Origin: a virus
Length of the DNA stretch: 23,373 nucleotides
IMG/VR virus record: IMGVR_UViG_3300034790_000020
Span: 1 to 23,373 of that record
Reading direction: 5' to 3' (one strand)
A program made the translations under genes and the position numbers. The stretch's first letter is position 1; each line of letters opens with the position of its first letter. A model generated the notes under the pieces. That model saw only the letters and a list, made by a program, of their open reading frames with translations, had not been told where the DNA came from and ran no database searches. Positions 2,040-23,299 of this stretch are shown here, piece by piece.

Positions 2040-2614
2040 GCTGGTTTTTTCCATTCTATTTGTTTTTGTATATCTTTGCTATATTCAAATCCCAGGTCTG
2101 CTGGGAAATACGATTGCTGACTTGTATTATTAGTATGTCTACCAGTAATACGTGCGAAGTTAGACCAATGACTACTTGTAGTTATGCTTACATTTGAACC
2201 CTCTTCTCCTAGACCATCATTGATAGATGCACTGTCTATGAATCCTTTATATACTTCAAGACTATCTTGATAAACATCGTATTCATAATAAGCACGATGA
2301 ATAATGATATCTTTGTCTATATAATCTACTCCTAATACTTCTTGCATAAATGGCAATGAGGCGTTTTCCAAATAAGCAAGCCCGCTTATTGAGATATTCA
2401 ATTTTTGTATTTCAAATCCAATATCTTCTACAATATTATCAATAGATAATAACGCACCAGCCATTTTATAATTGTTACCACCATAAGATATATCAAATGG
2501 TGCATTGGTTAAATAATAACCATTGTTAACACCGATGTATACTAGTTCATAATACTGAACTACTGGTTTGCTTGTAGTGGCGATTAAGCCACTACTCATA
2601 TTTCTATTTGCCAT
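2036..2614 (-). CDS. Minor tail protein, lambda gpL-like (DUF2163/DUF1833-like)
   Basis: This 192-aa protein lies just before the K-like and J-like genes, where lambda-type tails encode gpL. Visible features are YYELVYIGVNNGYYLTNAPFDISYGG near the N-terminus and then DIGFEIQKLNISISGL. These match the pattern of the family: a first segment describing a loaded surface, then a strand with an ISG-type turn. The segment YDVYQDSLEVYKGFIDSASI follows the usual L-like order, and the C-terminus GRHTNNTSQQSYFPADLGFEYSKD resembles the typical GxxT.....FPxDxGF-(E/D) ending. Lambda gpL carries an iron-sulfur cluster held by cysteines, but this protein has no cysteine, so no cluster is expected. The start overlaps the preceding stop as TAATG with AGGAAG 9 bases upstream. 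Confidence 0.72.
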   Translation of the reverse strand: MANRNMSSGLIATTSKPVVQYYELVYIGVNNGYYLTNAPFDISYGGNNYKMAGALLSIDNIVEDIGFEIQKLNISISGLAYLENASLPFMQEVLGVDYIDKDIIIHRAYYEYDVYQDSLEVYKGFIDSASINDGLGEEGSNVSITTSSHWSNFARITGRHTNNTSQQSYFPADLGFEYSKDIQKQIEWKKPA

Positions 2615-5600
2615 TATGAATAACTTCCTGTTTCAAATCCTACTGTGACGTTATATAAACCAAATGTATCAACAGTGTATTGGAACTCATCACTATCAAG
2701 TGATACAACTATCCAGTATGGATTCTTATATATCTTAGTTCCATTAATTACATTATAAGGATTTCCATAAGCAATTCTTATTTCTGCTTCACCATAAACG
2801 TTTGCGTCTACTGTATTTAACACAGTTGACACACCACCATTTTGATTGCCAGTAGCGATGATCATCTCACCTTTCTTGAACACATCTTGCTCATTACTGT
2901 TGAAACCACCTAACTTTAATAAGGTTTCACCAGCAACATAAGGTGTAACATGTCTAGGATTAGACCTTGATGCATTTGTATTGAAGTTTAATACCTTACC
3001 ACCCCATAAAGCGACAACCAGATAGAATGTTGCTGCTTGACCACGTGCTGCTTGTGCATCGGCATGTAACTCTTGAAACTCTGCTTTGGTTAAGTTAGTG
3101 TAATTTACTTCTAACTTAGTTTTAACAAACCCAGAAGACCTAACATATTTTCTACCATTCTGTGACATATTAGTTGTGCTTGGTTGCACATAGGTAATAC
3201 TAGCACTAGTAGGTATGACATCTTTAGCAAACATCTTTCCAGCACCTTGATAACCAGATAGATTAGTCCATGCATTATTAATATCAAAGTAGTCTTCCAT
3301 TGCAGCCGTATTGGGTGCAGGAGGGACATATTGACTTGGTGGTTCTTGAATTGGAAATACTAATTCACCATCTGTGGCAAACGTTCCAGTAGTGACTATA
3401 GTCGCTCCAGTAACATGACCGATAGAGTCTGTTGCAATTGTTATATCTGGTTGCAGTCCGATTACCGATGGAGTTCCACCAGCATCTCTTGCCATAGTAT
3501 AGTTAACTTCTGCACCAGGAACTCTGACACCAGATGTGTTAAGATATCCATAATCTGCATTGGCAGGAATACTCAGGTTAAGACTTAACAATCTATATCG
3601 GTTTGTCTCACTAGTTGATATTGTCAAGTGACCAGTTGTTGCATTAACATAATTCAAAACAGGAATAGTATATTGATTAGGTGGAGTATACACTTCGGTG
3701 ACTGTTCCAGTAGTTGAGTTTGTCACGATTAATATTGGCAAACTTAGGGCAAAACCACCTAAGTCTGCATATGTAGTATAAAGATAAGATCCAGTAGTTT
3801 TAGTTAATAGTGACGATTGCCAAGTCAATGGGATAGTGAATGCAGCGTCAGAATATAATTTATATTCATTTGCATTTGTTTGTTTTTCACCATAAACTGT
3901 TGCATATCTTTCATGCACATTGCGATGTATCTGTTGTTCCTCAGTCCAGAATACATCAAATATTTCCTGTCCTGTCAAACCATAATAATCAGACACTACT
4001 GAGTCAAACTGTCCATAACCAAAGTTTGTTGCAAATGATGTGCGTTCACCATTAGGCATACCAGTCAGCAATCGTGCCGTATCATAATCATAGGTAAATC
4101 CGCCAGTAACTGCTTCTACTCTGTATGTGCCGATCCAGGTTCCACTATCTCTGCCCATTAGTAAACGGTCGCCGTCATAATTTAACTGTATTGAGTAAGA
4201 TGCGTCGTAACCAATGGACGCTGCACCGTCTAAATGGGTGTATGTATTATTATTTGGGAATATCTTTCCTAATACTTGCCAGCCAGACTTATACTCGTAA
4301 TCTGTCTGAGAGATTGCAAGGAACATACCATCGCCACTTAATGATATAATATTGGAGTTGTTGAACAGACTTGGGATATTCGGGTCTGGATCATCTAATA
4401 AGAATGTATATATTAATGTCCAAGAAGTTCCAAACTCATAGATCAGTATTGTATCCATCTCATTAAATGTGAAGTTATTACTTCTTGGCTTCATACGAGC
4501 GACTGCGAATACACTGCCGTCGGAACTTGAAGTTATGTTAAGGTCGGTGTTCGGGCTATGTTCGTTGTATCCAATTAAGGTTGATTGGTCGCCGCGTATT
4601 AATGCTTCTGTCACAGTATAAGACCATGAATCAAACGCATGTTTTAATATTCTAACAGCACCGCGATAACTTTCATAAGTCCAGTCATTTAGGAACATAA
4701 CGTTTCCATCGGCACTTAATGTGATACTTGTGGTATTCCATTGGTTATTTGATATTGGTGGATTATCACTTGGTGTAATAGTCTTAGCAACTGCCCATCC
4801 AAGACCACTTCGCTCATGTATCCTAATGTCAGTGCCGTCTGTTGTTAATATAACATTGTCTCCACCAAACGCGACCAAATTTTCTCCAGAGTTTAATGTG
4901 GTAACGCTAACAACTGATGACCAGTTATTTTCAACACCTGGACCAGTTAACATTTCGTATTCGGTAACTGAACTACCCTGTTGCACAATTTTAATTTTGC
5001 CATTATGCGACAATTTAGATACAGTTATTTCATTCACTGTAGACGCTGTTTCAATTAGCGTTCGTGTCTCAGTCGGAGCAGATAATATAATATTATCATT
5101 GTTTACGCTAATCGTAGAGGAATCTAATGTTAATAATATTGTATCGTCAGATACTAGTTTATACGATAATGCATTCACTGGCTGATTATTCGTATATGAT
5201 AATAAGTTTGTCCCACCAACATCTGATGATACATTAAATGTGTCAGCATTAACTACTTGAATATAATATGTTTCTCCATTGAAGTCATTGCCAATGGATC
5301 CGTCAAACCCACTCATTAAGACTTCTGTTCCAGTGGTCATTTCGTTGCCTATTAGCGTAAACACACATGGACCAGCAGCAGTTGCAGACGTTATATTGGC
5401 ATCTTCCAAGTCATAAAACAATATCTCATTGGTAAGTGCAGAGTCTGCGAAGAACTTTAAGCCAATGCCGAAGGTGCCGCCTTCGTCTTTAACATATAAC
5501 TCTTGGTTGTTATAATACTGACCAAATGATCCATCCATGCCAGTGATTAATATCTTTTGTCCATCATGCATGTCATGTGCATAGATTGTGCCAAACAACA

Positions 5601-5922
5601 CTGATCCATTTGCATCTTTAAGTGAACTTGCAACATCTGCTTCTATTAATTCTTTTGTTCCAATTAATAATGGATAGGTATACAGATCATGTATTGATAT
5701 ATGATGGAATTCTCCTCTATCCCAATAATAGTCGTTAAACTTTGAGATGTTACTCATTAAGTCACTTACTGTATCAACTGGCGCAGTTCCAGTCCACGAC
5801 AGATAGTTGCCATCTTTCAGGTCTTGTATTCTTTTTTGGAATCCATCAGAACCATCACCTACATACAATGGGTCTATGTATGAGGTGGCTGCGTTGTTTG
5901 GGTATGTAAAGATTGCTTTCAT
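2614..5922 (-). CDS. Large multi-domain minor tail protein (distal-tail position) with apparent beta-propeller insert
   Basis: This 1102-aa protein lies directly after the tape measure and before the L-like gene, where a distal tail or gpM-like protein is expected. Three regions can be seen. Residues about 110-240 hold at least two copies of a small beta motif (KILITGMDGSFG and EVLMSGFDGSIG, each followed by a Y-(Y/V)-containing strand), like the FCCH-type repeats found in phage structural proteins. Residues about 340-620 show four or five blade-like repeats of a pattern such as SxDGxxxxx followed by a strand ending in an aromatic residue (SADGNVMFL, SSDGSVFAV, SGDGMFLAI, NYDGDRLLM), suggesting a beta-propeller. 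Residues about 900-1102 (FVKTKLEVNYTNLTKAEF to the C-terminus VTVGFETGSYS) resemble a compact tail-ring module and could be the core function. The start follows the previous stop directly (TAAATG) with AAGGAA upstream. The role is inferred from position, and the propeller could bind host surface polymers. Confidence 0.65.
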   Translation of the reverse strand: MKAIFTYPNNAATSYIDPLYVGDGSDGFQKRIQDLKDGNYLSWTGTAPVDTVSDLMSNISKFNDYYWDRGEFHHISIHDLYTYPLLIGTKELIEADVASSLKDANGSVLFGTIYAHDMHDGQKILITGMDGSFGQYYNNQELYVKDEGGTFGIGLKFFADSALTNEILFYDLEDANITSATAAGPCVFTLIGNEMTTGTEVLMSGFDGSIGNDFNGETYYIQVVNADTFNVSSDVGGTNLLSYTNNQPVNALSYKLVSDDTILLTLDSSTISVNNDNIILSAPTETRTLIETASTVNEITVSKLSHNGKIKIVQQGSSVTEYEMLTGPGVENNWSSVVSVTTLNSGENLVAFGGDNVILTTDGTDIRIHERSGLGWAVAKTITPSDNPPISNNQWNTTSITLSADGNVMFLNDWTYESYRGAVRILKHAFDSWSYTVTEALIRGDQSTLIGYNEHSPNTDLNITSSSDGSVFAVARMKPRSNNFTFNEMDTILIYEFGTSWTLIYTFLLDDPDPNIPSLFNNSNIISLSGDGMFLAISQTDYEYKSGWQVLGKIFPNNNTYTHLDGAASIGYDASYSIQLNYDGDRLLMGRDSGTWIGTYRVEAVTGGFTYDYDTARLLTGMPNGERTSFATNFGYGQFDSVVSDYYGLTGQEIFDVFWTEEQQIHRNVHERYATVYGEKQTNANEYKLYSDAAFTIPLTWQSSLLTKTTGSYLYTTYADLGGFALSLPILIVTNSTTGTVTEVYTPPNQYTIPVLNYVNATTGHLTISTSETNRYRLLSLNLSIPANADYGYLNTSGVRVPGAEVNYTMARDAGGTPSVIGLQPDITIATDSIGHVTGATIVTTGTFATDGELVFPIQEPPSQYVPPAPNTAAMEDYFDINNAWTNLSGYQGAGKMFAKDVIPTSASITYVQPSTTNMSQNGRKYVRSSGFVKTKLEVNYTNLTKAEFQELHADAQAARGQAATFYLVVALWGGKVLNFNTNASRSNPRHVTPYVAGETLLKLGGFNSNEQDVFKKGEMIIATGNQNGGVSTVLNTVDANVYGEAEIRIAYGNPYNVINGTKIYKNPYWIVVSLDSDEFQYTVDTFGLYNVTVGFETGSYS

Positions 5923-8037
5923 TTAATTATATATTCCTTGCTTTCCGCGTCTTGAGTAAGCATTATGAATAATACCTTCAACTTCGCGCTTATGATCTAT
6001 TAGGAACTGAGTTCCCGATTGTGTGTCTATTGCATTGATATTTATCGTTACATTTTGACCACCACCAGAATTCATCTCACCATTCAATGGTGTAACATTG
6101 GCTGGTCCTGTAATCAACTCTGCACCCGCTTCACCTGCAATACCGACTTGACCATTTCCAAGGTATCCACCGTTTGCGAACGTAGGTAATACACTCATAA
6201 CAAAGTCACCTAGAGGACTTCCTCCAAATGCTGAACCTAACATGCTACCTAGACCATTGATCAATGGTGCAACAAGCATCTGATTAATGAGGTTAGATAT
6301 CAATTGATCTACCCAACTATCTAAGAAATCACCGAATGAACGGAACAATCCTTTACCAGCCATTATGCCCTTTGTCACACTATCAGACATACTTTCTGAC
6401 ATATCTGCCCAGTAATCGCTTACAGTATATGCGGTTTCTAACGCTTCGTTACGCATATCACCATATAACTTATAACCGGCAATTATCTTCTTCTGATATT
6501 CGTCTGCTGACTTCATGGCTAATGCATCTGCATCTTGACGAGCATAACCATATTCTCTATATGCTTGCGTAGTATTTTCTAATGTTCGTGCATCGTCAGC
6601 ATCAGTGACACCTTGTGAACGTAAAGAACCAAGATCAATATACGCTTTCGTGAGTTTTGCCAGTTCAGCGCGTTTCGCCATCATTGCGACTATTTCTTCT
6701 TGCGCTGCGACTTGACCTATACCATATAATGAGTATTGTTTGTTTAGGTTGTGCACCTTATTGGCGTGGTTGATCTTTTCAATTCTTGCATTATCATCTG
6801 CGATGTTTCGCAACTGACCATACATATCATATTGTTTTCTCAGCGCGAGTTCCTGTGGCGAGGATGAATCTTGCAATGTATTAGATTGAAGCGCGTTTTG
6901 TATTTTATTGAGTTGTCTGACAGATTCTTCTGCTTGTGCTAATTTCGCTTCTATTGCAGTGGTGTCAATACCAGCAGCAGACAGTTTAAGATACTGTTTA
7001 CCTAATGCAGAAACCAATAGTTGCTGTCTTAATAATAAATCGTTTCGCTCAATAATGGATTTTTGTTCTTTTTCACCAGCAGTTGATGCGAAATATGCAT
7101 TAATACCTTCCAATTCTTCTTTGTATGATATTAAAGCAGTCGTAGCCGCATCTGTTAAACCTGCTTGATCGTCAATATTTCCGTTCGCTTCTGCAAGTCT
7201 CACACTGTATTGGGATAATATAACTGTAGCGACTCTTAAAGATTCTTCGTATAACCAGGTCGCTCCTGTTGATTCACCTACAGCAACGGCAAACCTATCA
7301 AACGCGTCACCGAACGCAGTTTCTAATTGCCCAATGGTTGTTTGCATTTTATTGAAAGACTCGGTGATCTCATTTGAGTTTAATAACAATGAAGAGAATA
7401 CTTCTGCTGTTAACTTACCTTGTCCTGCCAGTTCACGCAACTTGCCTACAGTCAAACCAGATTCACGCGCCATAATGGCAAGTGCTCCACCCATACCCTC
7501 TACAATAGAGTTGAATTCATCACCACGCACAGTTCCAGATGCCATCGCTTGACCAAACTGCTTAATAACACCAGCAGATGTTGACGCATCAGCGCCAGAT
7601 ACTTGTAATGCTTGTGATAGTTTGGTTGTTAATTTCTCTACTTTGCTGCTGCTGAATCCTAATGACTCAGTTGCTAATGTTAGATCAGAGTATAATTCTA
7701 CTGTAGACTTGAAACTAGTTCTGTTGGCTGCTGCAACCTTTCTAAGTCGGTCGGTCGTATTTGCCAGATCTTCGGTGCCATTAGTGACAAGTCTTAATCT
7801 GTTCTGGAGGTTTTGATATACTCTGGTTGAGTCTATCGTTGATTTGGCTAAAGTCACAACCGCTACGCCTAGTGCAGCGACACCAGCAACGGCAAGTTTG
7901 CTTGCCATGCCCATCCCGCGTATGCTAGATGTGGTTGATTTAGTGGTTGTATCTAGGCTTTGTAATTTTCTCTCTACGTTGCTAAGAGTTCTTCCAGTTT
8001 TGTCCTGGGCTTTGATGATGATATCATAATCTGCCAT
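5923..8037 (-). CDS. Tail tape measure protein
   Basis: This 704-aa protein sets tail length and helps DNA pass into the host. After an N-terminal charged region comes a hydrophobic segment (KLAVAGVAALGVAVVTLA, about residues 47-64). Residues about 70-260 match the tape-measure domain seen in many phages, with YQNLQNRLRLVTNGTEDLA, QALQVSGADASTSAGVIKQF and RGDEFNSIVEGM. The middle is helical with many AxxL and YG segments. The C-terminus has SNLINQMLVAPLINGLGSML and the motif FANGGYLGNGQ followed by GEAGAELITG, which is typical of lambda gpH-type C-termini. At about 0.15 nm per residue it predicts a tail near 105 nm. The start has AGGAAA 7 bases upstream, inside the end of the frameshifted chaperone frame. 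Translation of the two is probably coupled. Confidence 0.93.
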   Translation of the reverse strand: MADYDIIIKAQDKTGRTLSNVERKLQSLDTTTKSTTSSIRGMGMASKLAVAGVAALGVAVVTLAKSTIDSTRVYQNLQNRLRLVTNGTEDLANTTDRLRKVAAANRTSFKSTVELYSDLTLATESLGFSSSKVEKLTTKLSQALQVSGADASTSAGVIKQFGQAMASGTVRGDEFNSIVEGMGGALAIMARESGLTVGKLRELAGQGKLTAEVFSSLLLNSNEITESFNKMQTTIGQLETAFGDAFDRFAVAVGESTGATWLYEESLRVATVILSQYSVRLAEANGNIDDQAGLTDAATTALISYKEELEGINAYFASTAGEKEQKSIIERNDLLLRQQLLVSALGKQYLKLSAAGIDTTAIEAKLAQAEESVRQLNKIQNALQSNTLQDSSSPQELALRKQYDMYGQLRNIADDNARIEKINHANKVHNLNKQYSLYGIGQVAAQEEIVAMMAKRAELAKLTKAYIDLGSLRSQGVTDADDARTLENTTQAYREYGYARQDADALAMKSADEYQKKIIAGYKLYGDMRNEALETAYTVSDYWADMSESMSDSVTKGIMAGKGLFRSFGDFLDSWVDQLISNLINQMLVAPLINGLGSMLGSAFGGSPLGDFVMSVLPTFANGGYLGNGQVGIAGEAGAELITGPANVTPLNGEMNSGGGQNVTININAIDTQSGTQFLIDHKREVEGIIHNAYSRRGKQGIYN

Positions 8038-8041
8038 GTGT

Positions 8042-8523
8042 TTATTTCCTTTTGGCTAATTCGGACTTGTGTTTGTAATACAAGTTCCATGAACGAAGTT
8101 CTAATGAACTAACATTATTCAACACCCACTCTACACTAGTATGCATCTGTTCCGCTATTTGATAAAGAAAGAATATCTCTTTATCTTTTATTAGTTTCCC
8201 AGTTCGTCCTCATCAACTCCCTTGTTGATGTGACTTGCTAATCGCATTAATACTTCTGGATCAACTTCGTGCATTAATGTTACTCTGTCTGCGCCTTTGA
8301 ATAATTTCTTACCATCGGCATCACATGCTTTTGATATAATTGATTCAACTAATGCTTCTGCTAATTTACCTTCTGTGTGCAGTTTTAACACTTTCTGTTC
8401 ATCTGCTAATGAAGTGATACCTTTAAAATAAATGGTTGTTTCCCATTCAGGCACTTCTATTGATTGTAAAATACCTGATAACTGTGCTTTGTAATGTGCT
8501 GTTGCGTTTTCTAAAATGCTCAT
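8042..8523 (-). CDS. Tail assembly chaperone, frameshifted long form (lambda gpGT-like)
   Basis: I read this product from the sequence. Ribosomes translating the 110-aa short form meet GGGAAAC (8200-8194, read G-GGA-AAC in frame) directly before the UAA stop. A -1 slip lets them continue with CTA-ATA-AAA-GAT for 50 more residues, from LIKDKEIFFLYQIAEQ to the end YYKHKSELAKRK, stopping at 8042-8044. The fusion is 160 aa. The extension has no other start signal, fills an otherwise empty gap exactly and ends 4 bases before the tape measure start, as in lambda-type G/GT pairs. In lambda, GT binds both the tape measure and the tail tube protein. The slip site and the open frame are seen. Function and efficiency are inferred. 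No strong downstream pseudoknot was identified. Confidence 0.88.
8191..8523 (-). CDS. Tail assembly chaperone, short form (lambda gpG-like)
   Basis: This 110-aa helical protein is the main, unshifted product of the chaperone locus. It starts with ATGA overlapping the end of the gp10-like gene and ends at the UAA directly after the GGGAAAC slip site. The sequence is rich in acidic residues at the end (GVDEDELGN) and contains helices such as KLAEALVESIISKACDADGK and the segment PEVLMRLASHINKG. Chaperones of this kind coat the tape measure during tail assembly and are not found in the virion. Identification rests on its position between the tail tube and tape measure genes, its size, helical character and the frameshift site, rather than on a clear sequence motif. 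Confidence 0.85.
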   Translation of the reverse strand: MSILENATAHYKAQLSGILQSIEVPEWETTIYFKGITSLADEQKVLKLHTEGKLAEALVESIISKACDADGKKLFKGADRVTLMHEVDPEVLMRLASHINKGVDEDELGN

Positions 8524-8813
8524 CTTGCCTGCCTCGTTCTTTTTAATGTTGGGTTAAACATACCTTTTGGTGCTTGCTTACTATGACCATTATCCAACAC
8601 TGCCGAATAAGGCACTCTGTTGGTGAACAATATGTAAGAAGATTTCTCACCTAATTGGTTGTTATAGTTCTTGACCCACCCGCGCTTTGCACGACCGGTG
8701 TCAACTGGGGTTAATTTAACTAACGACTTAAAGAAGTCGTTAATATACTTGTTAAAATCATGCCCAATCTCGGCACGCAAATCTTTCATTGTGTTTTTGC
8801 TTTGATTGGACAT
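8520..8813 (-). CDS. HK97 gp10-like neck / tail completion protein
   Basis: This 97-aa protein carries the signature VKLTPVDTGRAKRGWVKNYN (about residues 32-51), a close match to the TPVDTG-(R/x)-L-x-x-x-W motif of the HK97 gp10-like family. A second hallmark follows near residues 61-77 (LFTNRVPYSAVLDNGHS), matching the usual N-x-x-x-YA-x-x-x-E-x-G(H/W)S segment with Asp in place of Glu. Family members join head and tail or complete the tail end. The C-terminus is unusually short: it ends in FNPTLKRTRQAR without the usual long final helix. The gene follows the tail tube gene by 8 bases and overlaps the chaperone start by 4 bases (ATGA), so it is probably translated by coupling. Confidence 0.8.
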   Translation of the reverse strand: MSNQSKNTMKDLRAEIGHDFNKYINDFFKSLVKLTPVDTGRAKRGWVKNYNNQLGEKSSYILFTNRVPYSAVLDNGHSKQAPKGMFNPTLKRTRQAR

Positions 8814-8821
8814 AGGTTACT

Positions 8822-9208
8822 TTACGCCTCTATACCGCGTGTTAGAACACCTGTGCCTTGGAATGCAATAGATCCCGAAACATTGTCTTCTGTAGCGCCA
8901 GTAAGTGCGAATGAAGTAATGATAACACTGCCACTGATCTTCCAATCTGTTGCTGTGTCGTCACCTTCTGGGAATACTTCTAGTGTATAGGTGTTACCAA
9001 CTACGATATCACCATCTTGACGATTCCATACTAGGTCGGCAGAACCGTCCCATGATTTGAACGTAACTGCATGTTCGCGATAACTCAAAGAGTCAAAGTG
9101 AGTGCATTCAGTTGTGTCCGCTGTTTCTGAAATTGAATAAGAAGTAAGTTGAGCAATGGCTGAACCACCCGCTTTAATTACTCCGTTCTTTCCTGCTGTG
9201 CATGACAT
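8822..9208 (-). CDS. Major tail protein (tail tube)
   Basis: This 128-aa beta-rich protein is the probable tail tube subunit. It has the usual N-terminal plan of small tube proteins: a glycine-rich strand (GKNGVIKAGGSAIAQLTSYS), the turn SETADTTECTHF, then YREHAVTFKSWDGSADLVW with the aromatic-rich GSADL strand. The remainder (NTYTLEVFPEGDDTATDW and SITAF-like strands ending GTGVLTRG) fits the same fold. It has a strong Shine-Dalgarno (AGGAG, 9218-9222) as expected for an abundant protein, and lies two genes before the tape measure. No extra Ig-like domain is fused to it. Family assignment is based on pattern and gene order. Confidence 0.82.
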   Translation of the reverse strand: MSCTAGKNGVIKAGGSAIAQLTSYSISETADTTECTHFDSLSYREHAVTFKSWDGSADLVWNRQDGDIVVGNTYTLEVFPEGDDTATDWKISGSVIITSFALTGATEDNVSGSIAFQGTGVLTRGIEA

Positions 9209-16497: not shown

Positions 16498-16977
16498 TTA
16501 TCCTATAGTGATAGTGGCCCAATCGGAAATCGCCACTTTTGTGATTATTTTTTCTTCGCCAGTGAATGCACCAGTGTCACTCATTGCTATATCTACCGAC
16601 TCATTGGAACTTTGTCCAATCAACAACTTGAAACTCTTGACAGTTTGAATTGACCCGATATCTATTTGTAAATAATCTGCACTCAGTGCAGTAGTGCCAA
16701 TGTTCCAATAACCAGTGGTGCTGCTGCTATCAAATGCTCGCCAGGGAAGATATGCAGAGCCTGTAGTAGAACTGTAATAATTAGCCGTCGCCACATAAGG
16801 TGTTGGAGTATTTCCACTACTCATGAATGGTGTCAACAAAGTTCCCGTTGCTTGTTGTCCACTAAATATATTGAATGTGAGGATTAGTGTTCCTATCTCA
16901 TCAAAACCACCAGCACCATCTGGTGCTAAACGTGGACCAGCGTAGTTATTAATACGGAAGTATCTGCCACTGATGGC
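16498..16977 (-). other. Discoidin-like (F5/8 type C) C-terminal domain of the large fibre
   Basis: The last 159 residues follow the discoidin pattern: a YFRINNY opening strand, AFDSSSTTGYW in the middle and a D-I/L-G strand (LQIDIGS) followed by VKSFKLL. No catalytic residues are seen, which suggests a binding role, probably to host sugars. Assigned by pattern only. Confidence 0.6.
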
Positions 16978-19437
16978 ACCAGTATTAATTGATAATGTCT
17001 CAATCTCTGACTGTATATCACCAAAGTCTTGACATTTGACTCTAATTTCATAACCAGAATATACGCCAGTAAGTGGTATTTTAACAGTTAATGTTCCATT
17101 GTTATTGTCGGTGAACTGTGAGTTAGTTTCCAGTAATGTTCCAGTGTCTGTATATAACTCACAGAAGTAAGATGGATCATCATAAGTTGCATGATTGCTC
17201 ACTGTAACTGTGTATTCAATTCCTACATAACAATCTGCATTACCAGTAAGAGTAGGCGTTACACTTATACCAAGATTAGTGTTTTGCCACTCACTTGCAA
17301 CGCTATTATACATTAACAAGTCATTGTTCTGTAAGTTAAGGGTTGATACATCTGTTAAGTTTGCTAGTGCAATGCTACCACCAGCATTTACCCATGACAG
17401 ATGACCGTCGCCATTAGTTGTCATAACTTGATCTAATGAGCCATCGCTCGCTGGTAATGTGTAATCGCTAACACCATCTGAAATCTTTAATAGACCTTTC
17501 ACGTTAGTTACTGGACTTTGGAATACAGTAGTAGTGTCACTACTGAATTGAAGTTGTGTCCCTTCAAATGTCATATTGGTTAATGAACCACCTGCGCTAC
17601 TGTTATCACGAGTTGAGAAGTAACCTTCATCCCCACGCATTGCGAAATCAGCCACATGTGACCCATCATCTGCACTGCCAGTGGCTTTTATGTTTAACAG
17701 ATGATTACTATTGGTTGTTTTAAATGCGACTACTGCAACATTGTTGCTTGGTAAATTAGCCCATGATATCATATTCAATGTTGCTGAATATGCTCCACCA
17801 TAAGTCTGATCGTCTGTGACAAATTCAAACGCAGCAGAATCACCACTTCGGTTCATCATCGTAGGTGGTGCGTATGTCCCCGTAGTAGTATCATATACTA
17901 CATGTGTTTCGCCCCAAGATACATTGCCATTGCCGTCGGTTGTCAACTGTTGATCTGTATTACCATCATTTTGCGGGAATGTGTAACTACCATTAATCTG
18001 AACACCATTATTGGTGATTAAGTTAATATTATCAGCATCAAATTCTAAACCAGTTGCTGACTCATTCTGGAAACGAGACTTAAATACATTGTTAGTTCCA
18101 CTTAATACAAAGTTAGTTGAATGTGAACCATCACCTGGATCAACACCACCACTTGCTACAGCATCAAAGCGGAATAGTTTCTTGTTGGAGTCTGCTGTTT
18201 TCCAATGCATACCAGTGAAGATGTTCTGACCAACATTGTCAAATACAAAGTTTTTAAGTGCACCACCATCATTATCGCTGCGGAAATACAATGGTGCACT
18301 ACTGCCCCATTTACCAGTTGTAATACCAGTTGCACCAATAGTCATACCATTAATGTCTGGATCAATCGTAACAACATCGGTAAGGTTTGTTAAGTCAACC
18401 GCAGGAATAGCAGCGATACTATTATCTGTATAAAGGTTTGCACTTGACAATGTAGTTGCATCACCAGAGTTACTATTAACAATTGTTTCATATGAACTAA
18501 GATCAACTGCTGGAATAGCAGCGATAGAGTTGTCAGTATACAAGTTTGCACTTGATAGTGTTGTAGAGTCACCCGTTGTGACTTGAGTCGTTGTTGCAAA
18601 CCCAGCACTATTAGTGTCAATGACTGCCTGAACACGAGGAGTTGTATGATAAAGATTAGTAACACCTTCTGCTATGTTATCACTACCTAATACAACATTA
18701 CCCGTTAATGTGTTAACACTTGTAACTGGGACGGTAGGAGTCAAACTTGATAAGTCAACTGTATTACCATTTGATATTGTTAGGTTAGGATTAGCAAAAC
18801 TAAGTGTTTGACTGTCTGTTGAACTTGTAATATAACCAGCATCATTTGTGAATGTAGACACTGGTAATGCCTCTACTTGAACTGTAGTTGAATAAGCACT
18901 TAGGTCTGTTGCTGGTATTGCTGCAATAGATGTGTCTGTATATGTGTTTGCACTTGATAAAGTTGTTGCATCACCAGCATTACTATTAACAATAGTTTCA
19001 TAAGCACTTAGGTCTGTTGCTGGTATTGCTGCAATAGATGTGTCTGTATATGTGTTTGCACTTGACAATGTAGTTGCATCACCAGCATTACTATTAACAA
19101 TAGTTTCATATGATGATAAGTCAACCGCTGGGATTGCTGCGATACTATTATCTGTGTATGTGTTTGCACTTGATAGCGTTGTTGCATCACCTGCTTCACT
19201 ATTAACAATGGTTTCATATGATGTTAAATCAGTAGGCGGGATAGCAGCAATAGATGTGTCTGTATATGTGTTTGCACTTGATAGAGTTACAGTATCTCGT
19301 CCGTCTACGTATTCTTTGGAAACGCCTATGGTTGCGAATGCAGCAGGGTTAATATCAATGTAAACTAAATCGTTTGATTCAGTTATGGTTACATCTAGAT
19401 TACTGTCATCTAGTGGGACTGTTGTATAAACTGTCAT
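16498..19437 (-). CDS. Tail fibre with 36-residue repeats and C-terminal discoidin-like domain
   Basis: This 979-aa fibre shows several regions. The first 48 residues (VYTTVPLDDSNLDVTITESN) may attach to the tail. Four tandem 36-residue repeats follow (residues about 50-193), each with TLSSANTYTD, SIAAIP and SYETIVNS. Two more copies lie near residues 288-351. A unit EGVTNLYHTTPRVQAVID links it to the second fibre. Two trimerisation-like segments read QLTTDGNGNVSW and QVMTTNGDGHLSW. An Ig-like region at about 720-815 comes before a discoidin (F5/8 type C) fold at about 821-979, with PWRAFDSSSTTGYW and YLQIDIGSIQTVKSFKLL. Discoidin domains often bind sugars or lipids, so this end may touch the host. 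The start overlaps the upstream stop (TAATG) with AAGGAG. Confidence 0.88.
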   Translation of the reverse strand: MTVYTTVPLDDSNLDVTITESNDLVYIDINPAAFATIGVSKEYVDGRDTVTLSSANTYTDTSIAAIPPTDLTSYETIVNSEAGDATTLSSANTYTDNSIAAIPAVDLSSYETIVNSNAGDATTLSSANTYTDTSIAAIPATDLSAYETIVNSNAGDATTLSSANTYTDTSIAAIPATDLSAYSTTVQVEALPVSTFTNDAGYITSSTDSQTLSFANPNLTISNGNTVDLSSLTPTVPVTSVNTLTGNVVLGSDNIAEGVTNLYHTTPRVQAVIDTNSAGFATTTQVTTGDSTTLSSANLYTDNSIAAIPAVDLSSYETIVNSNSGDATTLSSANLYTDNSIAAIPAVDLTNLTDVVTIDPDINGMTIGATGITTGKWGSSAPLYFRSDNDGGALKNFVFDNVGQNIFTGMHWKTADSNKKLFRFDAVASGGVDPGDGSHSTNFVLSGTNNVFKSRFQNESATGLEFDADNINLITNNGVQINGSYTFPQNDGNTDQQLTTDGNGNVSWGETHVVYDTTTGTYAPPTMMNRSGDSAAFEFVTDDQTYGGAYSATLNMISWANLPSNNVAVVAFKTTNSNHLLNIKATGSADDGSHVADFAMRGDEGYFSTRDNSSAGGSLTNMTFEGTQLQFSSDTTTVFQSPVTNVKGLLKISDGVSDYTLPASDGSLDQVMTTNGDGHLSWVNAGGSIALANLTDVSTLNLQNNDLLMYNSVASEWQNTNLGISVTPTLTGNADCYVGIEYTVTVSNHATYDDPSYFCELYTDTGTLLETNSQFTDNNNGTLTVKIPLTGVYSGYEIRVKCQDFGDIQSEIETLSINTGAISGRYFRINNYAGPRLAPDGAGGFDEIGTLILTFNIFSGQQATGTLLTPFMSSGNTPTPYVATANYYSSTTGSAYLPWRAFDSSSTTGYWNIGTTALSADYLQIDIGSIQTVKSFKLLIGQSSNESVDIAMSDTGAFTGEEKIITKVAISDWATITIG
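18384..18577 (-). repeat. Two copies of the fibre repeat (second array)
   Basis: Two units with TTLSSANLYTDNSIAAIP and near-identical DNA lie about 114 bases apart and are separated from the first array by about 280 bases of other fibre sequence. They carry L in place of the T in NTYTD and N in DNS. The later copy merges into a DLTNLTDV segment. Confidence 0.8.
18859..19290 (-). repeat. Four tandem 108-bp repeats inside the large fibre gene
   Basis: Four units of 108 bp (36 residues) repeat in frame, each encoding TLSSANTYTD, SIAAIP and a (T/S)-(S/A)-YETIVNS-like segment. Copies 3 and 4 are nearly identical in DNA and the others differ at scattered third positions. This is consistent with expansion by duplication. 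It sits in the shaft just after the N-terminus. Confidence 0.9.
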
Positions 19438-20974: not shown

Positions 20975-22018
20975 TTATTTATCAAATAAACTATCAAAGT
21001 GATCATCATTGAACTTCGCTTCCCATGCAGCAATACGATTAGTTGCTATCTCTACGTAGTTGGGATCTAACTCACAACCAACATATTCATAACCAAGTTC
21101 TACACAAGCCATTCCCGTTGAACCACTACCATTGAATGGGTCTAATACTATTCCACCTTCTGGTGTAACTAACTTGACTAGATACTTCATTAACTCTACA
21201 GGCTTGACAGTTGGGTGATTGTTTTCTGCTGCGCCATTAGTGTTACGCTCTGCTCTGCCTACTTTAGGACAATAGAAGTATTTCTGGTAGTCAGTCACTT
21301 CGCCTATTACATTAGATGGGTATCTACCTTGAGGTTTGAATGTGTCTACTTCATCTGTATATTCAACTCTACTACCATCTATATTAAGTGCACCAGTTCC
21401 ATGCTTTAATACATTATCAATGCAACTACCTTTGAATGGTTTGCGTGCCATGACGATTGGTTCATGTGCTGGCTTTAGTGCTGTCTTCCAACCAGCCCAT
21501 TGTTGTGCTTCTTCTGTTTGGTAATTGTATCTTTGTCCACAGTCTTCTTCTTTGCAGTCTTTAATCCATGATCCAAGCGTCTTATTGCATACTAAGCATC
21601 TGTAGTCTTTTCTACCTTGACCCTCAGTTACAATACCAGAGTGCTTGTTTGACCCATAGTTAGGATCTTTCTTACCCGCTCTCTTGTCTATTGTTTTACC
21701 CATATCTTGTGCTTTAGGAAAACCACTACCATATAACCACATGATCTGGTCGCGTATTTCAAAGCCTGCTGATTCTATATTAGTTGCTAAGTTGTGATAA
21801 GTTCGTGCTGCGCTGAATGCGAGTATATAACCGCCTGGCTTTAATACTCGTAGACACTCTTGCCATGTTTCCATTGCACCAGTATCTTTGTCCCAGTCTT
21901 TACCTAAGAACTCTATTCCATATGGTGGGTCTGTAACGATGCTATCAAATGTGTTGTCTTCGTATGATTTTAGTAGATCAATATTATTACCGACCAATAC
22001 TTTCCAATCTTTCTTCAT
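20975..22018 (-). CDS. DNA methyltransferase, N6-adenine/N4-cytosine type, with zinc-ribbon-like insert
   Basis: This 347-aa enzyme probably transfers a methyl group from S-adenosylmethionine to adenine N6 or cytosine N4. The catalytic motif DPPYGIEF is at residues 30-37 near the N-terminus, and the SAM-binding motif LDPFNGSGSTGMA (292-304) comes near the C-terminus after HPTVKP (268-273). This order is that of the beta class. Between them, C141-x2-C144 and C155-x4-C160 (CLVCNKTLGSWIKDCKEEDC) look like a zinc ribbon in the target-recognition region. No restriction enzyme gene is next to it, so it is probably an orphan phage enzyme that protects or regulates phage DNA. The target sequence cannot be read. 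AAAGGAG lies upstream of the ATG. Confidence 0.93.
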   Translation of the reverse strand: MKKDWKVLVGNNIDLLKSYEDNTFDSIVTDPPYGIEFLGKDWDKDTGAMETWQECLRVLKPGGYILAFSAARTYHNLATNIESAGFEIRDQIMWLYGSGFPKAQDMGKTIDKRAGKKDPNYGSNKHSGIVTEGQGRKDYRCLVCNKTLGSWIKDCKEEDCGQRYNYQTEEAQQWAGWKTALKPAHEPIVMARKPFKGSCIDNVLKHGTGALNIDGSRVEYTDEVDTFKPQGRYPSNVIGEVTDYQKYFYCPKVGRAERNTNGAAENNHPTVKPVELMKYLVKLVTPEGGIVLDPFNGSGSTGMACVELGYEYVGCELDPNYVEIATNRIAAWEAKFNDDHFDSLFDK

Positions 22019-22036
22019 TGTGTTTCTCCTTTATTG

Positions 22037-23299
22037 TTAGTATTTATCAAAGACCCAAAGGTCTTCAAAGTTGCCGTCTCGTTGTTTTTTGGATTGGCGA
22101 CTACCTCCCATTGCACTCCATCTAACCTTATAATGTTTATCAAATGTTAAATGTTTTGCAACTACTTCTTGCATATCTTTTGATATATCGCGTTCTTCTT
22201 TATCCTTTGTTCTATAATTGCTAATAACAAATCCAAACTTTGCTTCTGGTTTCATTACTTGTTTACATAGTTTAACAGTTTCTTCCCAGTAACCTATTAA
22301 CCAATCATTATAGTCAGGGTAACTATTGAAACTCTGATTTTCACTTGGGTATATTTCTAAATCAAAGTATGGTGGACTAAACAACACTGCATCTATTGTA
22401 TTTCTGTATTTGTTTACAAAGTCATGCTTTGCATCTAATTGCTCACTTGGGCACAAATACAAGTCACTAGTCTTAGTAGTGTCACCACTGTCAAATAACT
22501 GTTCAAACGAGTTGGGTGATTTGTTATCATATTGTGCTTGCATCCAATGAGCGTTGTCTACTACACTAGGTATTACATCAGTTGCTACAAAGTGTTTGAA
22601 CTTACTGCTATAGAATGCTTGTTGATAACTGTTCCAACCCATAACAGGTGCAAATACTGTTTCACCTTGAAACACTGTATCAAGAATGCTTTTATATGTA
22701 TAAGGGTTAAACACACTTGCTTTGTTTGCACCCATCATGAAGTCAGTCCATACTTGTTTGTATGAGTCTTCAATCTTACATATATGATCAAAGAATGCGG
22801 GACCTGCTAGACTGTTGCGAATATGAAAGCGTTCATACATTGCTTTTAACAGTCCTAATACATATTCACTGTCGTTAGTATATAGTTTTTTTGTATTATA
22901 GAAGTTTTCAAAGTTTAAGTTCTTGCTTAGTCTACCATACTTACTATTCTTCATACCCATGAATGTATCGTCTTTAAGACAATTACCTTCTGGTAGTTCT
23001 AAATAAAACTCAGTTGCATTTGGTAGTGCAACATATTGATCAAACCATTGCTTTAAACTTGCTTCTGCATCTGTTACTAACATTTGATAGAGTTTTTTAA
23101 GATACAAGTCAACTCTAGGTGGTCGTGGGTCATTATCTTTTTTAGTGACCCTATCAAGAAACACATGTATATCGCTGCGTATTTTGAATGTTCCACTCTT
23201 ATCAGATATATCTAATATGCTCAGTTGACTACAGAAGTCGTCAAATGATATTTGTTGTATGTTTACTTCATTGAGTAAATCTTTAAAGGTTGTCATCAT
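22037..23299 (-). CDS. DNA methyltransferase-like protein with SPPY motif
   Basis: This 420-aa protein has a probable SAM-binding loop VFAPVMGWNSYQQAF (215-229) followed by an acidic Asp241, and then the catalytic-type motif AVLFSPPYFDLEIY (304-317). The order, SAM motif before SPPY, differs from that of the neighbouring enzyme. The SPPY-x-x-LE-x-Y form is typical of a group of phage-borne N6/N4 methyltransferases. The SAM loop is divergent (APVMGWNS instead of DP-(F/C)-AGxG), so activity is not certain. The first 200 residues have no recognised motif and may recognise the target. Two ATGs (23299 and 23296) are possible. The start overlaps the upstream gene by 17 bases and lacks a Shine-Dalgarno. 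The two methyltransferases are unrelated enough to have distinct targets. Confidence 0.82.
   Translation of the reverse strand: MMTTFKDLLNEVNIQQISFDDFCSQLSILDISDKSGTFKIRSDIHVFLDRVTKKDNDPRPPRVDLYLKKLYQMLVTDAEASLKQWFDQYVALPNATEFYLELPEGNCLKDDTFMGMKNSKYGRLSKNLNFENFYNTKKLYTNDSEYVLGLLKAMYERFHIRNSLAGPAFFDHICKIEDSYKQVWTDFMMGANKASVFNPYTYKSILDTVFQGETVFAPVMGWNSYQQAFYSSKFKHFVATDVIPSVVDNAHWMQAQYDNKSPNSFEQLFDSGDTTKTSDLYLCPSEQLDAKHDFVNKYRNTIDAVLFSPPYFDLEIYPSENQSFNSYPDYNDWLIGYWEETVKLCKQVMKPEAKFGFVISNYRTKDKEERDISKDMQEVVAKHLTFDKHYKVRWSAMGGSRQSKKQRDGNFEDLWVFDKY

Follow-up and report, generated by a model that had tools for sequence, protein, structure and literature searches.

Does the 110-residue chaperone gene of this phage, which ends on G_GGA_AAC directly against its stop codon, send part of its ribosomes into the -1 frame and so give two products, G and GT? 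G/GT frameshifting is a classical phage system. We think that such a pair is made here by ribosomal -1 frameshifting on this heptamer, and put the probability of that reading at about 0.93. The window, that is, the whole stretch of viral DNA analysed (23,373 nucleotides), was read together with its relatives; what is established here is the signal and its conservation at the RNA level, together with the order of the genes and the two protein domains.

Gene layout and the two protein domains

The features are as follows, in the numbering of the window:

8822..9208, minus strand: major tail tube protein, with which the T domain is expected to interact (Pfam Phage_tail_2, 1.5e-5; phrog_1407, 1.7e-16)
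8520..8813, minus strand: neck/tail-completion-like gene, between the tail tube gene and G
8523..8191, minus strand: G, tail assembly chaperone, zero frame, 110 aa (reading of the ORF, phrog_344 and predicted fold)
8200..8194, minus strand: slip heptamer G_GGA_AAC, in phase (read directly; in-phase XXXAAA(C/G) in 69/71 distinct relatives)
8193..8191, minus strand: zero-frame stop TAA, flush with the heptamer (flush in 63/69 relatives)
8194..8045, followed by stop TAA 8044..8042, minus strand: T extension, -1 frame, 50 codons (open frame, selection and gpT homology)
8185..8161, minus strand: predicted stem-loop 3' of the heptamer (fold z -1.96; family-wide stem; covariation in a sister group)
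5923..8037, minus strand: tape measure protein, on which G and GT are expected to act (Pfam TMP_3, 1.8e-48; phrog_339, 6.9e-61)

The order of genes (tail tube, neck-like, G, T, tape measure) is the placement expected of a G/GT pair. G ends ...GAA CTG GGA AAC TAA, the stop being the codon right after the heptamer, and the T stop is followed by ACAC and the tape-measure ATG at 8037. A preliminary description had given a 110-aa frame ending in GGGAAAC-TAA and a -1 frame of 50 codons which stops 4 nt ahead of the tape-measure ATG, and the minus strand reads exactly so. The neck/tail-completion-like gene and G share an ATGA overlap at 8520..8523 (minus strand), which suggests that translation into G is coupled with that of the neck-like gene.

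Elsewhere, also on the minus strand, a protein of 979 aa (16498..19437) with tandem repeats like TTLSSANTYTDTSIAAIPATDLS has no PHROG match and is perhaps a fibre or structural protein. A 1102-aa protein (2614..5922) matches a distal tail protein at residues 901-1087 only, its large N-terminal part being unmatched, and adjoining proteins of 347 and 420 aa (20975..23299) match DNA methyltransferase, the second weakly. No Rfam families or tRNAs were found within the window, and a search of solved structures by sequence gave no match.

G was matched to phrog_344 (tail assembly chaperone) at 5.2e-9. The best solved-structure match of its AlphaFold2 model (pLDDT 86) was HK97 gp13 [2OB9], over the full length, with a Foldseek probability of 1.00 and an E value of 4.8e-4. 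The identification of G as a tail assembly chaperone with the HK97 gp13 fold is supported by this predicted structure. Since G has no recognisable sequence similarity to lambda gpG, its link to that protein is one of place and role, not of sequence. The joined product GT matches phrog_16513 (tail assembly chaperone) over residues 2-154 of 160 at 1.9e-9, against 0.011 for G alone.

Viral contigs, genomes and phage records were scanned for relatives, and 71 distinct G/T sequences whose end could be read were obtained; the genome scan contributed a single relative. A profile of all 14 G sequences held no stretch conserved enough, and a closer set was used for the scan. Selection and frame statistics rest on the 57 sequences with less than 97% nucleotide identity.

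At this composition a 50-codon frame would be open by chance in 2.9% of cases. Among the 57 non-redundant complete relatives the -1 frame holds 0 stops, as against averages of 5.7 and 5.4 in the remaining frames. Median dN/dS is 0.38 for G and 0.41 for T, and T evolves as a protein, with purifying selection acting on both parts. Modelled alone, T forms three helices (pLDDT 91.7). The structure predictions were made without rows taken from phage records. The window's own T extension has no significant PHROG match by itself; the profile of the T family was aligned to lambda gpT by hhalign with a probability of 90% [1.4e-6] and found by hmmsearch [domain E value 1.1e-6], and phrog_337 matches both lambda T and 29 of the 38 T family members. 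Judged by these profile comparisons, the T domain is a homologue of gpT. The preliminary assignment of a G/GT tail chaperone pair is therefore upheld by the HK97 chaperone fold predicted for G, the gpT homology of the extension and the conserved heptamer and -1 frame.

Annotation of the T region varies among the records. Two short "hypothetical" genes, HTVC112P gp41 (L127:1906-2052) and HTVC111P gp45 (L128:1906-2058), lie over the T extension on the opposite strand; they are probably spurious and mask real coding in the -1 frame. In Sinorhizobium phage phi3LM21 a portion of T is annotated as a separate hypothetical protein, p41 (L022:3396-3506), and its frame is open from the AAAAAAC of G.

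The slip heptamer and the RNA downstream of it

The window's other genes, 7,230 codons in all, hold 7 in-phase X_XXY_YYZ heptamers (Y = A or T) and 0 GGGAAAN; a second GGGAAAC within G (8444..8438) is out of phase. An in-phase heptamer stands at the end of G in 69 of the 71 distinct relatives, with G identity reaching down to about 26%. It is GGGAAAC in 53 (49 flush with the stop, 1 at +3 and 3 at +12), AAAAAAC in 14 (12 flush, 2 at +3) and AAAAAAG in 2, both flush, and among the relatives it changes only from one of these good heptamers to another. The two exceptions are L129, a remote hit, and L006, whose isolated upstream frame break looks like an assembly error. The heptamer and its conservation argue against chance; the open frame by itself would be weak evidence.

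The Asn codon of the heptamer is AAC in 55 of 55 sequences and AAT in 0, even though AAT would be silent in G, would give Leu (TTA) in T and would keep the stop. Comparable two-fold sites (at least 45 sequences) underwent 6 to 15 changes, against none at this codon. The Gly codon is likewise GGA in 42 of 42. The heptamer is conserved at the RNA level, bases that are silent in both frames being frozen. The preliminary description, which looked to related phages to keep both heptamer and -1 frame, agrees with the alignment, where the one is present in 69/71 and the other is open. Its "textbook" slip site stands as a motif, not as to strength: on E. coli ribosomes X_XXA_AAC is a poor shifter, AAC being a poor second slip codon (PMC4066793).

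A downstream stem-loop, absent from the preliminary description, is predicted at 8185..8161. It consists of a 10-bp stem (8185..8176 with 8170..8161) and a 5-nt loop, separated from the heptamer by a spacer of 8 nt, and it folds only moderately better than shuffled sequences (z -1.96; 7 of 200 shuffles as good). A hairpin stands at this place in each of the window's four close relatives, mostly in shifted registers, and in the window's own group the stem is formed with a 3' arm that lies closer. For the window taken alone the case for the stem is moderate.

The fold test compared the 60 nt beginning 5 nt past the slip with a null having the same protein and the family's codon usage. Minimum free energies were lower than in this synonymous-codon null: z averaged -1.85 and fell below -1.64 in 32 of the 57 sequences. 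Elsewhere in G and T it ranged from -0.3 to -1.0; a minority of relatives had no stem stronger than the null. The 5' arm starts sharply at +8 or +9, the pairing probability at +9 to +12 being 0.83-0.86 versus 0.57-0.59 (0.86 versus 0.59 at +9 itself). In a sister group (n=20) a 9-bp outer helix joins columns 9-17 with 46-54; 91% of its cells are paired and three of its pairs are changed on both sides, as are 7 of the 17 pairs in the whole structure, counts which do not represent independent events as the sequences are related. The covariation score and the paired fraction were each reached in 0 of 500 shuffles, and pairing fell by half when the partner was displaced by 1 to 3 bases. The family thus appears to conserve an RNA structure at the right spacing for a canonical -1 frameshift cassette. 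Compensatory changes were also seen in the stem of L056 and L060, where GATTTAG faces CTAAATC. Upstream, Shine-Dalgarno-like pairing, a stimulator in dnaX, has a family mean of -4.69 kcal/mol against -3.59 for the synonymous null, but its best position is only about 6 nt upstream.

From this arrangement we infer that ribosomes slip, how often they do so and how G and GT share the work. Most ribosomes would stop at TAA and release G (110 aa). In a minority the Gly and Asn tRNAs on G_GGA_AAC would slip back one base onto GGG_AAA, with ribosomes slowed by the stem-loop 8 nt downstream and the stop as the next codon; these would read 50 more codons to give GT (160 aa), whose predicted sequence across the junction is ...ELGN-LIKD... 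in the window. If lambda is a guide, G parts would cover the tape measure protein, and a few GT copies would recruit tail tube subunits through their T domain. The 3' position of the stem fits the usual frameshift architecture, and a poor slip codon such as AAC (PMC4066793) suits a low ratio such as the 30:1 of lambda (PMC5009743); the HK97-like chaperone genes that have been tested gave 6-7% (PMC3711429).

Other origins of the T product were weighed. T might be translated separately, through reinitiation at the G stop, which adjoins it, or from an internal start; the preliminary statement that no ordinary start could explain the gap needs a small correction, an in-frame ATG being present at 8146..8144. 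This ATG has no good ribosome binding site upstream, lies past the first helix of T and inside the conserved domain, and is not conserved in the relatives. Separate translation would, moreover, leave unexplained both the freezing of the heptamer at silent positions and the match to phrog_16513 over the length of GT, and we hold it to be very unlikely. The shift could in principle be made by transcriptional slippage at the AAAAAAC or longer A runs of some relatives; GGGAAAC, the site found most often, contains no long homopolymer, and the phase, the flush stop and the stem-loop fit a slip of the ribosome, which makes a polymerase origin extremely unlikely. L006 has the kind of isolated break that assembly errors give, and one might take the frame break at the end of G for a sequencing error or the decay of a single gene. 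The same break, at the same heptamer, recurs across many samples and in cultured pelagiphages, in 69 of the 71 distinct sequences altogether, and both parts are under purifying selection, which renders this hardly conceivable. Ribosomal frameshifting on the heptamer is the reading that we retain.

The stop codon beside the slip site

The zero-frame stop is flush with the heptamer in 63 of 69 relatives. It lies otherwise in nine related prophage chaperone genes, where it follows the slip by 3 to 36 nt (commonest 21; flush in 0), and in the SEA-PHAGES training set, with a mean of 26 nt (PMC10885494). The comparison with lambda GGGAAAG "at the same place" made in the preliminary description holds for a -1 slip near the end of G; the lambda site precedes the G stop by 15 nt and is not flush. 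In phiCbK of Caulobacter the stop is flush too. The flush stop is thus a conserved trait of this phage family with at least one parallel. The idea that AAC sites work only with a flush stop was ruled out, most of the related prophages using AAAAAAC with the stop 21 nt away.

The stop might merely be inherited, or be forced by the first T codon, and have no role in frameshifting. T begins almost invariably with Leu, read as CTA in the -1 frame, and in L056 and L060 the stop has been lost while Leu is kept as CTC, so that the stop is dispensable. Against this, HTVC111P and HTVC112P have Val (GTA) as the first T residue and their stop is still flush; the Leu codon is therefore not the whole reason for where the stop is placed. 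Furthermore, the middle base of TAA falls on the fourfold wobble position of T's first codon, where a change would be silent in T and destroy the stop; 4 changes were inferred there on the G tree, whereas 23 comparable fourfold sites averaged 14.1 (sd 4.3). We consider a stop without any role in a real frameshift to be possible, though somewhat unlikely. Loss of the flush stop (TAA to TCA) with retention of the heptamer and the -1 frame was observed in L056, L060 and L070, which serve as natural test cases.

It is possible that the stop raises slipping by pausing the ribosome. In the one bacterial test found, however, made with the HIV slip sequence (Horsfield 1995, described in PMC4373837), frameshifting was lower when a stop stood at that position, and it was abolished by extra cognate release factor. 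We tentatively put forward, as a doubtful and rather unlikely proposal, that the flush stop takes an active part in the switch: ribosomes would slip while the stop waits in the A site, the G:GT ratio would be set by release factor against slippage, and tail assembly would be tied to the termination capacity of the host.

Comparison with known systems

GGGAAAC as a slip site was known already from Caulobacter phage Colossus (PMC3556154) and from halovirus HCTV-1 (PMC5009743). Our literature search found no description of G/GT frameshifting for pelagiphages, and a gene piece previously unannotated in marine phages, cultured pelagiphages included, is now annotated. The relatives supply some 70 natural frameshift signals that vary in heptamer, stop position and stem-loop. 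With this set an old question can be put to the test in bacteria, namely whether slipping of the tRNAs precedes or follows entry of the next codon into the A site.

The Pelagibacter phages HTVC026P, HTVC202P, HTVC111P and HTVC112P, and Phage DSL-LC06, share the gene pair, the flush stop and the open -1 frame; they differ in having AAAAAAC or AAAAAAG, and T is unannotated in their records. The phrog_344 chaperones of prophages of Pseudomonadota belong to the same G family and have a -1 T extension, but use mostly AAAAAAC, with the stop 3-36 nt after the slip (commonest 21) and a T of about 100 aa. HK97 gp13/gp14 shares the fold of G (2OB9) and a -1 frameshift product; near the end of gp13 the pattern used here finds no canonical in-phase heptamer.

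Caulobacter phage phiCbK gp93/94 (AAAAAAC) and its counterpart in Colossus (GGGAAAC) are, in the passage of PMC3556154 that treats them, annotated as -1 frameshifted chaperones preceding the tape measure. The heptamer of phiCbK is flush with TAA as it is here, a point on which that passage is silent; phiCbK differs in being a giant siphophage whose chaperone is larger. Lambda G/GT has the same place between tail tube and tape measure, a -1 slip near the end of G and a homologous T, whereas its GGGAAAG lies 15 nt ahead of the G stop and its T has 144 aa; here the site is flush and ends in C, T has 50 aa, and the G parts are without detectable sequence similarity. The conserved flush stop and the rewired stem-loop set the layout apart without making the system one of a new kind.
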